This document shows, piece by piece, positions 6,029 through 20,862 of a stretch of 24,202 nt of DNA. Under the pieces are notes generated by a model. It made no database searches. It saw only the letters and a program-made list of their open reading frames with translations, and was not told the DNA's origin. Origin of the DNA: a virus; IMG/VR virus record IMGVR_UViG_3300047480_000369, positions 1-24,202 of that record; one strand, written 5' to 3'. The first letter of the stretch is position 1. Each line of letters opens with the position of its first letter. Made by a program: the position numbers and the translations under genes.

Positions 6029-6029
6029 G

Positions 6030-6101
6030 AGCCTCGTAACAGATTTGAACTGTTGACCCTTCGCTTACAAGGCGAATGCTCTACCACTGAGCTAACAAGG
6101 C
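6030..6101 (-). tRNA. tRNA-Thr (UGU)
   Basis: A cloverleaf can be drawn: acceptor GCCTTGT/ACGAGGC with discriminator U, a D-arm with AGCTCAGTGGTAGAG, and anticodon loop CTTGTAA (anticodon UGU) on stem TTCGC/GCGAA. The T-arm contains GTTCAAATC. CCA is not encoded. It reads ACA codons, which are common in this AT-rich phage. Confidence 0.9.
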
Positions 6102-6271
6102 AAATGCCAACCACGACTTTGATTCTTAATCTAAACCATCTGTTGGCTGTTATACCTAGTTCTCGCTTCATCATCTGATTCATGAGCCTGAACGCTTTCA
6201 TCAAACGGCTGGAACACGGTAAGATTCAGTATAACTATCTCCACATAGATTGTTCAGATCTATGTTTTGAG
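6102..6271. other. Spacer between two tRNAs
   Basis: 170 bp without a convincing gene. An ACATAGAT (6243-6250) / ATCTATGT (6258-6265) hairpin followed by TTTT on the plus strand could end transcripts from the virion genes. A minus-strand open frame passes through here, but it continues through tRNA-Thr and is not credible as a protein. The remainder might be a decayed third tRNA; no cloverleaf could be completed. Confidence 0.45.
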
Positions 6272-6344
6272 CTGGACCACCAGGGCTCGAACCTGGGACC
6301 TAGAAGTTAACAGCTTCCCGCTCTGCCGACTGAGCTATGGTCCA
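6272..6344 (-). tRNA. tRNA-Asn (GUU)
   Basis: 73 nt without CCA. The acceptor TGGACCA/TGGTCCA pairs perfectly and the discriminator is G, as expected for tRNA-Asn. The D-arm is AGCTCAGTCGGCAGAGC and the anticodon loop CTGTTAA gives GUU on a GGAAG/CTTCT stem. The T-arm has CCAGGTTCGAGCCCTGG. Confidence 0.93.
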
Positions 6345-7074: not shown

Positions 7075-7428
7075 TTAAACTTCCCCGCTTTTTTCATTTA
7101 AATATGCAATTGCTTTATTTAGAAGATCAGTACTATCTCTAAACTGACCAAGACCAATGTTACAGGAGTTACAGAGCCATGCTCTAAATTCTCCTGTTTC
7201 CCAGCTATGGTCTAAATACCACTTAGGAGAATCTCCACCACAAATTGGACAACGATAATCTTGCTTTGGATATTCATTTTCTTTTTTTAGTTGACTAGTA
7301 ATTTTCTGAGATATAGACTGACATGGTCTACAAACAGATTTATAATGAATTTTCTTCAAGCTTGTTACAGCAATAACCATTTCTTCAATTGGTTTTTCTA
7401 TTTTACATACTCTACATGTTCTAGTCAT
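7075..7428 (-). CDS. Recombination endonuclease VII
   Basis: 117 aa from the ATG at 7428; an in-frame ATG at 7434 exists, but AAGGG is well spaced only for 7428, which also gives an ATGA overlap. There are two zinc-knuckle pairs at the N-terminus (C5-C8, C33-C36). Then comes the endonuclease VII core: CPICGG (C60-C63), LDH (73-74), WLCNSCNIGLGQFRDS (C86-C89) and a C-terminal helix (LLNKAIAYL). T4 endonuclease VII resolves Holliday junctions and branched DNA before packaging. Confidence 0.88.
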   Translation of the reverse strand: MTRTCRVCKIEKPIEEMVIAVTSLKKIHYKSVCRPCQSISQKITSQLKKENEYPKQDYRCPICGGDSPKWYLDHSWETGEFRAWLCNSCNIGLGQFRDSTDLLNKAIAYLNEKSGEV

Positions 7429-8311: not shown

Positions 8312-8360
8312 TATATACATAAGAAGTTGAGAAAGTCTCAACACGAAAGGTTAGGTCAAA

Positions 8361-10268: not shown

Positions 10269-10299
10269 TACGGCATAACAAAAACGAAAGGTGGAAACT

Positions 10300-10637: not shown

Positions 10638-10666
10638 ACCAACAACAAAACGAAAGGAAAACTAAA

Positions 10667-11465: not shown

Positions 11466-11490
11466 TACCGCATAACGAAAGGGAAAACTT

Positions 11491-12620: not shown

Positions 12621-12648
12621 TGCGCTATCGACAAACGAAAGGTAAAAA

Positions 12649-12935: not shown

Positions 12936-12953
12936 CACAACGAAAGGAAATAA

Positions 12954-13541: not shown

Positions 13542-13568
13542 TCAATCTCAACTAACGAAAGGAAACAA

Positions 13569-13788: not shown

Positions 13789-13827
13789 ATTGGCTAAACA
13801 AACAACTAACGAAAGGGAAATAAACAG

Positions 13828-15824: not shown

Positions 15825-15898
15825 GGTTCGTTAGCTTAGTTGGATAAAGCGCTACCCTGTCACGGTAGAGATCACGGGTTCAAGTCCCGTACGAATCG
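15825..15898 (+). tRNA. tRNA-Asp (GUC)
   Basis: 74 nt without CCA. Acceptor GGTTCGT/ACGAATC with one G-U pair and discriminator G, D-arm TAGCTTAGTTGGATAAAGC, anticodon loop CTGTCAC (GUC), T-arm CGGGTTCAAGTCCCG. No separate promoter is obvious, so it is probably processed from the DUF932 mRNA. Confidence 0.93.
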
Positions 15899-15952
15899 CT
15901 GAGATTTCAATATCAATATGTGAGACGCCCGCAGATCTAAAGGCCAATTTTT

Positions 15953-16024: not shown

Positions 16025-16672
16025 ATGACAACCTGGACTAAATATACGTACGCATGTGACCCAAATGAATGTGACTCATTGATCGAATTTACATCCAGAG
16101 ATGGATTTGGATTCCCGTCTGGAAGTGTGAATAACATCACATGTCCATGTGGGCGTGTCCCAATTCTTTTGTCAGTGCATGATGCTACAATTACACCAAC
16201 AAACGAAAGGAATGAAATGGAAACAACAAGCACGGCTCCATACTCATATGATGCTAATACCTTGGTAACATATAAGTCAATTAATAATGGTGAGGTAACT
16301 TATCCTACACTTAAGGTAAATGAATTAGAGATTCATCTTGATTCATACCGCCGACTACAGGACCAGTTAGCAATTAGCAATGGACAGATTAGCAAGATTC
16401 TTGATAATCTTTCTGCAGACGGTTGGTATAATCCAAACTACGAGAAGTTAGAAGTTCTCAATGACCTATGCGAAATTCTTGGTCACGAGCCAAAGCAAAC
16501 AGTTCGCATTACTGGAACTATTTCATTTGAAATCGACTACGACATTCCTCTAGAAGAGGTAGAAGATTTTGATGCACATTATTTCCTACAGGATACTTTA
16601 ACTCTTGATGCATACAATGGAGACGTTGTTGTCGAATCTTGGACAGTAGAAGATTCGGACGTGAGTTACTAA
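16025..16672 (+). CDS. Two-part protein with internal promoter and second start (16217)
   Basis: 215 aa in the long form. The N-terminal 55 residues hold a zinc-finger-like layout (YACDPNECDSLIEF, then ITCPCGRVP). Then, without a stop, the reading frame crosses TGTCAG-N10-TACAAT, an AACGAAAGG leader and an ATG at 16217. That start would yield a separate 151-aa protein beginning METTSTAPYS, with two helices (LEIHLDSYRRLQDQL; LEVLNDLCEILG) and a beta-rich acidic C-terminus. The long form should be leaderless. The layout looks like two array genes fused by loss of the first stop, or deliberate nested isoforms. Neither half has a recognised function. Confidence 0.72.
   Translation: MTTWTKYTYACDPNECDSLIEFTSRDGFGFPSGSVNNITCPCGRVPILLSVHDATITPTNERNEMETTSTAPYSYDANTLVTYKSINNGEVTYPTLKVNELEIHLDSYRRLQDQLAISNGQISKILDNLSADGWYNPNYEKLEVLNDLCEILGHEPKQTVRITGTISFEIDYDIPLEEVEDFDAHYFLQDTLTLDAYNGDVVVESWTVEDSDVSY
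16170..16191 (+). promoter_or_regulatory. Intragenic TGTCAG-box promoter 14
   Basis: TGTCAG (16170-16175), 10 bp, TACAAT (16186-16191), followed by CAAACGAAAGGAAT (16200-16213) and the internal ATG at 16217. Confidence 0.65.
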
Positions 16673-17242: not shown

Positions 17243-17650
17243 GTGGGAGATAGAGCAAATTTCGGATTTGTACAGCCGAATGGAAATACAATCGTACTAT
17301 ATGGACACTGGGCAGGACATCAGATGTTAGGCAAACTAGCGGACGCCGTCATCGCTGCTCGTCCACGTTGGAATGACCCAGCATATGCAACACGTATAGC
17401 AATTAGCAATATCATTGGTAATGACTGGAACATGGAGACTGGATTTGGCCTACATGTAAATGAGATTTCAGACAACGAGCACAAGATTGCTATCGTTGAC
17501 TGGGAGCAACAGACATTCAGTCTTCATGAAGAGGATGATTTCCGTAATACGGAGAACAAGGTCCGTGGAATGAAGAACGAGGCGCTATTCACAATGGACC
17601 TTTCTACATTCTGTGAGAAGTATGCCTTGGATGAAATGCTAGTCAACTAA
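17243..17650 (+). CDS. Conserved actinophage-type protein (GTG start)
   Basis: 135 aa from GTG at 17243, preceded by GGAAGAGG. GDRANFGFVQPNGNTIVLYGHWAGHQMLGKLADAV at the N-terminus, then WNDPAYATRIAISNIIG and DWEQQTFSLHEEDD. Proteins opening with DRANFGF...LYGHWAG recur in phages as I recall; none is characterised. A probable alpha/beta fold. It ends the operon before the small-RNA promoter. Confidence 0.76.
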   Translation: MGDRANFGFVQPNGNTIVLYGHWAGHQMLGKLADAVIAARPRWNDPAYATRIAISNIIGNDWNMETGFGLHVNEISDNEHKIAIVDWEQQTFSLHEEDDFRNTENKVRGMKNEALFTMDLSTFCEKYALDEMLVN

Positions 17651-17661
17651 TATGCTATAAT
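17651..17661 (+). promoter_or_regulatory. Extended -10 promoter of the 17668 small RNA
   Basis: TATGCTATAAT with TATAAT at 17656-17661. The predicted start, 17668, is the first base of the first RNA hairpin. Confidence 0.6.
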
Positions 17662-17667
17662 ATGAAT

Positions 17668-17817
17668 AGGTCCGTGTGACCTGTTCATTGAGTAGTAGGG
17701 TGCGGCTAATTAGGTATAATCACCAAGTCGCTAAGTAAAGCAGGTTTACTTAATTCCTTTCGTTTGACTAGCAGCCCTACTTTTAAAACCCCCAGTAGCT
17801 TTCCTGGGGGTTTTTGC
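17668..17817 (+). ncRNA. Candidate regulatory small RNA with anti-leader (anti-Shine-Dalgarno) sequence
   Basis: About 150 nt from promoter to terminator, with no credible open frame. AGGTC/GACCT (17668-17682) is a 5' hairpin. AGTAGGG (17694-17700) pairs long-range with CCCTACT (17775-17781). Between them, TAAGTAAA (17732-17739) pairs with TTTACTTA (17745-17752). CCTTTCGTTTG (17756-17766) is left single-stranded just after that stem. Its complement is CAAACGAAAGG, the leader motif of at least eleven genes here; the match to the leader at 16200-16213 is 14 nt. Base-pairing would block ribosome binding, so the likely role is trans-acting translational control. A minus-strand gene is excluded because no start codon follows. 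Confidence 0.68.
17785..17815 (+). terminator. Intrinsic terminator of the small RNA
   Basis: AAAACCCCCAG pairs with CTGGGGGTTTT (stem 17785-17795 with 17804-17814), loop TAGCTTTC, followed by TTTGCTTT. A classical Rho-independent terminator. Confidence 0.85.
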
Positions 17818-17943
17818 TTTGCCCTCAGATGGTGAGGGTAGCATATGCTATTTACGAGTGTCAAGTATTTTCCCTAAAATTCCACAATTTGAGATCAGCT
17901 TGATCAAATGTGGTGGGCATCACAGGGATATTCTATAGACAAT
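17818..17943. other. Regulatory spacer with imperfect operator
   Basis: No gene. Contains TTTGAGATCAGCTTGATCAAA (near 17888) and TGTGGTGGGCATCACA (17909-17924, one mismatch to TGTGA-N6-TCACA), centred 43.5 bp before the next -10. Confidence 0.5.
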
Positions 17944-17965: not shown

Positions 17966-17992
17966 TAAGCCATATCAACGAAAGGATATACA

Positions 17993-18766
17993 ATGCCAAA
18001 TTGGGTATATAACACCTTGACAATTCAAGGTCCAAAAGAGGAAATTGATTCTATCAAAGAAAGACTGAATCGTCCATTTACATTAGCACAAGAGACATAT
18101 GGTATGGGTGATATTTCATCTTCTGGATTCCCCACCAAAATTAAGCAGGTTGAATATAACAATCCTGTCTTTGCTTTCTTCAACATTCATTCATATAAGG
18201 ATGACGGTATTACTGATGAAGAATATGCATGCCAGCCTGACCGTGGCAATATCGACATGAAAGACCCTGATTGGTTCCGCAAATCTGTTGAGTTTGCTAA
18301 GACCCAAAAGGATTGGTATTCATGGAATAATTCTAATTGGGGAACTAAATGGGATGTTGCTGTTCGTGATGAGGATGAATATCCAAATACAGAACTAATT
18401 GAATATAAGTCAGAGGGTGATGATAATTGGCTTGTATATAAGTATGAGACTGCTTGGTCTCCTGCCGTCACCGTTTTGCAGAAGTTGTCTCATCTTGTTC
18501 CTAACTCTCTTCTTACATTAGAATACGAAGAAGAGCAGGGTTGGGGTGGAGAACTAGAGATTGTCCGTGGTGATGTAAAAGAAATCTTAGAATATGAGAC
18601 ACGTTGCTATGCATGCGATTCATATGATACATTAGATTATTGCGATAATGATTGTGGTCAATTCTGTTCATCTTGTAATGAGGGCTCATGGAGAGATGAA
18701 GAGGCTATGAAAGAATGTCAGACCCACATGGTATTATTGGAATCTACAGAAAAGGTGGAAGCATGA
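17993..18766 (+). CDS. DUF1281/YubB-like protein with C-terminal zinc cluster
   Basis: 257 aa. Opening MPNWVYNTLTIQGPKEEIDSIKERL is the hallmark of the YubB/Api92-like ferredoxin-like family (DUF1281, PF06924/PF18406) found on phages and plasmids. The middle has WNNSNWGTKWDVAVRDED and PAVTVLQKLSHL. A C-terminal cluster of eight cysteines (CYACDSYDTLDYCDNDCGQFCSSC) adds a zinc domain not typical of the core family. Function unknown. Its 3' end holds a promoter and overlaps the next gene (ATGA). Confidence 0.82.
   Translation: MPNWVYNTLTIQGPKEEIDSIKERLNRPFTLAQETYGMGDISSSGFPTKIKQVEYNNPVFAFFNIHSYKDDGITDEEYACQPDRGNIDMKDPDWFRKSVEFAKTQKDWYSWNNSNWGTKWDVAVRDEDEYPNTELIEYKSEGDDNWLVYKYETAWSPAVTVLQKLSHLVPNSLLTLEYEEEQGWGGELEIVRGDVKEILEYETRCYACDSYDTLDYCDNDCGQFCSSCNEGSWRDEEAMKECQTHMVLLESTEKVEA
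18716..18737 (+). promoter_or_regulatory. Intragenic TGTCAG-box promoter 16
   Basis: TGTCAG (18716-18721), 10 bp, TATTAT (18732-18737), inside the last codons of the DUF1281-like gene and 26 bp before the next start. Confidence 0.6.
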
Positions 18767-20839: not shown

Positions 20840-20862
20840 CGACAAAACGAAAGGCGGATACA

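Follow-up and report, generated by a model that had tools for sequence, protein, structure and literature searches.

Does a short cassette in a viral genome encode an RNA that pairs with a leader shared by the genes around it? The stretch of DNA that raises this question (the window) is an IMG/VR virus record of 24,202 bases, whose relatives are phage contigs from fresh water, the largest of about 120 kb. The nearest named relatives of gene 17243-17650 are Actinomycetia phage DSL-LC01, which was assembled from a lake metagenome (PMC10611076), and Streptomyces phages of the Stanwilliamsviridae, and the ribonucleotide reductase of the window is also nearest to Streptomyces phages; the host of the virus is therefore probably an actinobacterium. 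In the Streptomyces phages Yaboi and Wofford, a tmRNA gene (L167:12416-12694 and L168:12418-12697) directly follows the homologue of gene 17243-17650, and the corresponding place in the window holds the small RNA. A tmRNA identity was rejected for the latter, as ARAGORN finds no tmRNA in the window.

The RNA gene in the window has its own promoter and terminator, as expected of trans-acting antisense RNAs that occlude ribosome-binding sites (RBS), and its transcript is predicted to start near 17668. The extended -10 and the intrinsic terminator had both been reported in the first-pass annotation, made from the letters of the window, and both are borne out (Table 1). A TGnTATAAT motif lies upstream of 86 of 126 distinct homologues and a -10 of any kind upstream of 99, while a terminator-like hairpin is present in 92 of the 126; the promoter or the terminator is not recognisable in about one quarter of them. 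An automated terminator scan of the window did not pick up the terminator at 17785-17815, we guess because the A and T runs were counted into its stem. An inverted repeat, CCCTCA-GATGG-TGAGGG (17822-17838), lies directly 3' of the terminator and could be an operator or a hairpin; a similar element is found downstream of the RNA in relatives.

The leaders in the window precede 11 genes, all on the + strand, and each lies 6-11 nt before an ATG. Ten of the 11 read AACGAAAGG, and that at 8342 reads CACGAAAGG. The runs of complementarity between leader and RNA are 8-14 nt long, the longest being CAAACGAAAGGAAT at 16200-16213; the genes, run lengths and longest match claimed in the first-pass annotation all check at their coordinates. 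The leaders start a short distance after -10 boxes, and TGTCRG is found upstream of all of them except the one at 20846. With up to one mismatch, AACGAAAGG has 14 matches compared with 5.0 expected, and none of 100 shuffles scores as high. The products of the target genes mostly fall into no family; GP88 and DUF932 genes adjoin the targets, and both were scanned too. A single reverse-strand 8-mer in 24 kb, such as the copy in the RNA gene, is unremarkable alone and takes its weight from conservation, and relatives were therefore examined.

Homologues of the RNA were collected by pattern, by neighbouring proteins and by profile. About 67 distinct homologues were found, mostly at the same locus in related freshwater phage contigs, the usual place being between the orthologues of genes 17243-17650 and 17993-18766. 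At the gathering score, Rfam 15 finds only tRNAs in the window, and the best other match of the RNA region reaches 20.5 bits against a cut-off of 39; two scaffold variants likewise match no Rfam family. The window has three tRNA genes, at 6029-6101 and 6271-6344 (Thr and Asn, - strand) and at 15825-15899 (Asp, + strand). Searched as nucleotides against phage records, neither the RNA region nor the entire window gives a match, and our first pattern finds none in bacterial genomes. A looser pattern gives four bacterial matches, which lie in coding-like sequence and were judged to be chance. The putative RNA family is thus new, widely conserved and structured; it has no Rfam entry and occurs in many freshwater phage contigs.

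The RNA of the window folds with a minimum free energy (MFE) of -48.1 kcal/mol (z = -2.98; one of 200 shuffles is as good). Folding with covariation from relatives, using an alignment of 54 homologues, supports three helices, P1, P2 and P3, whose covariation score is 0.402, compared with 0.131 +/- 0.010 for shuffled alignments and at most 0.093 for slid partners. RNAalifold, with the structure not supplied, returns the identical 18 pairs. Two P2 pairs are changed on both sides, in 26 and 22 of the 54 sequences. One P2 pair runs through GC, CG, AU and UA and the next through GU, UG, CG and UA, in each case with no break among the 54. Of the stems claimed earlier, the 5' hairpin, the folded core and the terminator are present, but the conserved fold differs slightly from the MFE fold of the window, with the conserved loop closed by P3 (GCAG/CUAGC). 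The AAGUAAA/UUUACUU hairpin of the window MFE was not adopted, since by eye it shows recurrent mismatches in relatives and is perfect only in part of the family.

Table 1. Positions of the RNA elements, the leaders and the loop-less scaffold variants (window coordinates unless a contig is named)
Feature	Position	Strand	Basis or remark
Extended -10 promoter of the RNA, TGCTATAAT	17653-17661	+	Sequence
Small RNA gene, predicted transcript	17668-17817	+	Fold z, homologues at the same place, CM match of 81.3 bits
5' hairpin, AGGTCC..GGACCT type	17668-17682	+	Seen in many homologues; sequence varies among relatives
P1, 5' strand (pairs with 17774-17780)	17695-17701	+	Covarying helix
P2, 5' strand, GCGGCT (pairs with 17726-17731)	17702-17707	+	99.4% of cells paired
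P2, 3' strand	17726-17731	+	Covariation
Single-stranded linker UAAgUAAA, conserved	17732-17739	+	Also retained by homologues that lack the anti-leader loop
P3, 5' strand (pairs with 17768-17772), closes the anti-leader loop	17740-17743	+	Covariation
Anti-leader CCTTTCGTTTG	17756-17766	+	P3 loop holds its invariant core, CTTTCGTT (17757-17764)
P3, 3' strand, one bulged base	17768-17772	+	Covariation
P1, 3' strand	17774-17780	+	Covariation
Intrinsic terminator AAAACCCCCAG-TAGCTTTC-CTGGGGGTTTTT	17785-17815	+	Sequence and fold
Leader CACGAAAGG, gene 8361	8342-8350	+	
Leader AACGAAAGG, gene 10300	10283-10291	+	
Leader, gene 10667	10649-10657	+	
Leader, gene 11491	11474-11482	+	
Leader, gene 12649	12634-12642	+	
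Leader, gene 12954	12939-12947	+	
Leader, gene 13569	13554-13562	+	
Leader, gene 13828	13808-13816	+	
Leader, gene 16217	16200-16213	+	Longest complementarity (14 nt)
Leader, gene 17993 (DUF1281_C, Api92-like)	17977-17985	+	
Leader, gene 20863	20846-20854	+	No TGTCRG upstream
Scaffold variants without CTTTCGTT	L096:6840-6910, L141:7259-7317, L154:7107-7166, L233:2994-3059		Also L207 and L242

The loop sequence CUUUCGUU is invariant in all 54 aligned homologues, and the P3 loop otherwise varies in length and sequence. When viral contigs are searched with a pattern that does not contain the loop sequence, 67 of 73 distinct scaffold matches have CUUUCGUU, and some of the remainder look like chance matches in coding sequence. 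In the window, the predicted unpaired probability is 0.87-0.98 for CCTTTC and 0.41-0.91 for GTTTG, and with the loop closed by the covarying P3 this agrees with the exposure of CCTTTCGTTTG that had been claimed. The CUUUCGUU stretch is predicted to be unpaired with an average probability of 0.63, compared with 0.42 for the core, while single-sequence folding buries the loop in some members (for example, 0.21 unpaired in L133). The candidate seed is accessible, conserved and complementary to the Shine-Dalgarno (SD) regions of several targets.

Among relatives, 12 genomes of 107-120 kb have 8-13 AACGAAAG sites each, and most of these lie on one strand in a single cluster of about 10-14 kb around the RNA, whose loop, inside this cluster, is the usual opposite-strand copy of AACGAAAG. 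An ATG follows nearly every leader at the loci inspected. The reversed control pattern shows no such enrichment in phages, and a freshwater actinobacterial draft genome has two such leaders compared with six matches to the reversed control. Because the leaders are clustered near the RNA and rare elsewhere, the regulon would be local and not phage-wide. The regulon-wide RBS switch proposed in the first-pass annotation is narrowed accordingly in its targets to the local cluster, but the exposure and invariance of the loop and its evolutionary link to the leaders stand.

This link is seen in phages that lack the loop sequence. The scaffold occurs without it in L096 and L100, in L141 and L154 and in the more distant L207, L233 and L242; these variants keep P1, P2 and the UAAnUAAA linker, and their P3 is short or different. 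The RNA is degenerate or undetected in L103, L124 and L131. Phages without the loop sequence have 1-3 leaders per about 10.7 kb compared with a mean of 4.8 in the 39 phages with it (L101, described below, is set aside in this count), and the loci of L207, L233 and L242 have zero leaders. Hairpins without the complementarity, which had been named as evidence against pairing, are thus seen in some relatives, but few or no leaders are found there. For the seven genes that most often bear a leader, AACGAAAG is found upstream of the orthologues in 237 of 374 distinct regions from phages with the loop and in one of 20 from phages without it, the totals being summed by hand and related phages treated as independent. 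An SD-like sequence stays in 18 of these 20 regions, and the AACG part is lost. The AACG half is unexplained by 16S pairing and is missing where the loop is missing, which argues for pairing as the function; its loss together with the loop is, we suggest, the strongest single argument. Pairing as the function of the putative RNA is well supported by these comparisons.

We consider it likely that the locus encodes a structured, trans-acting antisense RNA of the phage that occludes the RBS of a local regulon and so shuts its genes off together. The RNA would be transcribed from its own extended -10 and fold, so that the P1-P3 scaffold offers the CUUUCGUU loop, and each target mRNA would pair with it through the AACGAAAG(G) leader close to its 5' end. 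The SD lies inside the leader, and the duplex would cover it, block binding of the 30S subunit and silence together the translation of about ten genes within about 12 kb, which may serve a stage switch of infection. We infer the production of the RNA, its pairing in cells, the repression and the timing of the switch from sequence. If true, one master RNA would control a regulon at the level of translation, and no protein regulator is obvious. The same pairing could instead activate or protect the mRNAs, by blocking decay from the 5' end or by recruiting mRNA. The leaders do lie near the expected 5' ends of the mRNAs, a short way after the -10 boxes, and the direction of regulation is unreadable from sequence; however, the duplex would cover the SD itself, and phages without the loop keep ordinary SDs on the corresponding genes, which implies that translation is independent of the RNA. 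We regard activation as unlikely.

Another reading takes the scaffold as the functional part, binding a protein or the ribosome, with the loop secondary, for example with the leader mRNAs acting as a sponge for the RNA. The scaffold and the UAAnUAAA linker are indeed kept without the loop sequence in several phages. On the other hand, the four lineages that lack the loop all have few leaders, and in L101 the loop sequence sits in an unrelated hairpin, so that we give this reading little credence. The loop state has switched at least four times on a tree built from the 17993 protein, with four lineages lacking the loop sequence. In independent pairs of phages that differ in the loop, the number of leaders nearly always shifts in the same direction, with about three such pairs, a number at which significance is unreachable. 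In L101 the usual RNA has lost the loop sequence and six leaders remain within 10 kb; here TTCCCTTTCGTTG is found in the loop of a separate strong hairpin, GGGGAGGTTGG-TTCCCTTTCGTTG-CCAACCTCCCC (about 7360-7395), about 2.4 kb downstream of the start of the 17993 orthologue. We take this one case as a probable relocation of the anti-leader to another hairpin. As the scaffold survives without the loop sequence, antisense action is perhaps not its sole role, which suggests that the scaffold may have a second role of its own.

There are exceptions to the link between loop and leaders. At least three leaders persist in L131, where no RNA is detected, and L110, which has the RNA, has a single leader. 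In DSL-LC01 (L170, OQ999401), leaders of a related kind, ACGACGAAAGGACAA in most cases, precede 21 genes, and the genome gave no homologue of the RNA. The loops of two hairpins in it, near 30161 and 41345, are partly complementary to the DSL-LC01 leader, and sites in coding regions score equally.

The preferred reading, RBS occlusion by the loop, is also consistent with pairing energies. Each of the 11 leaders of the window is bound more tightly by the loop than by the 16S tail (means, -15.0 and -9.9 kcal/mol, respectively), and the binding of the loop to 29 further start regions is weak (-7.7 kcal/mol). These values serve as a consistency check only, as selection of the targets rested on the match itself and the 16S tail is background knowledge. 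Among 31 loop types, leaders bind their own loops better than swapped ones, by 0.80 kcal/mol (0 of 5,000 permutations; related phages are treated as independent). Base-by-base covariation between the flanks of the loop and those of the leaders is weak, and the flanking dinucleotide matches little.

The loop could also be a mimic of the 16S anti-SD, directed at SDs in general, of host or phage, with the match to the leader reflecting the shared SD. CCUUUC equals the end of actinobacterial 16S rRNA, and to this extent the anti-SD resemblance pointed out in the first-pass annotation is real, but it is secondary: it is CUUUCGUU that is invariant, many loops have A or U at the first C of CCUUUC, and the CGUU half has no 16S counterpart. 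The loss of AACG with the loop while the SD stays, and the far weaker binding of non-leader starts (-7.7 compared with -15.0 kcal/mol), also speak against such a mimic, which we hold to be very improbable. It is hardly credible that AACGAAAGG is a DNA operator that recurs, reversed, in the RNA gene: the repeated sites, which do adjoin promoters, are fixed in orientation and in spacing to the ATG and include the SD, and the reversed one falls in the loop of a covarying RNA.

Among known systems, the closest analogues are the c4 RNA of phages P1 and P7 and RNAIII, and the RNA described here belongs to neither. In P1 and P7, translation of the phage ant mRNA is blocked by c4 loops that pair around its RBS (PMC12197685). 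The putative RNA resembles c4 as a phage-made structured RNA with loop complementarity to the ribosome-binding region of the phage's own mRNA; however, c4 targets the ant mRNA, while here one loop matches about ten genes, most of them with their own promoter, and the Rfam C4 covariance model gives no match at E values up to 10. In Staphylococcus aureus, UCCC loops of RNAIII and the Rsa RNAs pair with the SD of many mRNAs (PMC3861533). The RNA here shares with them an accessible C-rich hairpin loop aimed at the SD of many mRNAs, but RNAIII and the Rsa RNAs are chromosomal, use a short SD-directed motif and have targets without a uniform extended leader. The phage small RNAs covered in the same review as c4 mostly target one phage gene or host genes: lambda OOP and P22 sar are antisense to one phage gene, and lambda PreS has an Hfq-dependent host target (PMC12197685). 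OOP, sar and PreS are phage-encoded regulatory RNAs, as the RNA here putatively is, and differ from it in having one phage gene (OOP and sar) or a host target (PreS).

A uniform leader is also known from cluster K mycobacteriophages, in which the start-associated sequence (SAS), an SD with extra conserved bases, precedes many right-arm genes, and a single SAS in opposite orientation is found in the K1 phages Anaya, Adephagia, Angelica and CrimD (PMC3203893). The SAS resembles the leaders here both in its uniform SD-containing form and in its single reversed copy. It differs in sequence (GGGATAGGAGCCC compared with AACGAAAGG here), so that our leaders are not SAS, and no RNA partner is proposed for it in the cited cluster K papers. 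In Angelica (L290, HM152764), the only reversed SAS (58634-58646) lies in the loop of a strong hairpin, which is also found in Amelie and Niklas and, in that form, is absent from six other cluster K phages. Late transcription in Adephagia is reported to start between genes 92 and 93 (PMC11373665), and the reversed-SAS hairpin, close to this reported start, may be a parallel to the RNA here, a lead rather than a proof. It is conceivable, as a tentative generalisation, that actinophages recurrently use one extended SD leader per gene block and one silencing hairpin loop to end one stage of infection, as may be seen here, in L101 with a different hairpin and in cluster K1 mycobacteriophages, the scaffold here having a further function. 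A regulon of the kind proposed for the window would give a testable reason for the uniform start-site leaders of actinophages, including the unexplained SAS of cluster K. The region of the reversed SAS is unannotated in several cluster K phages.
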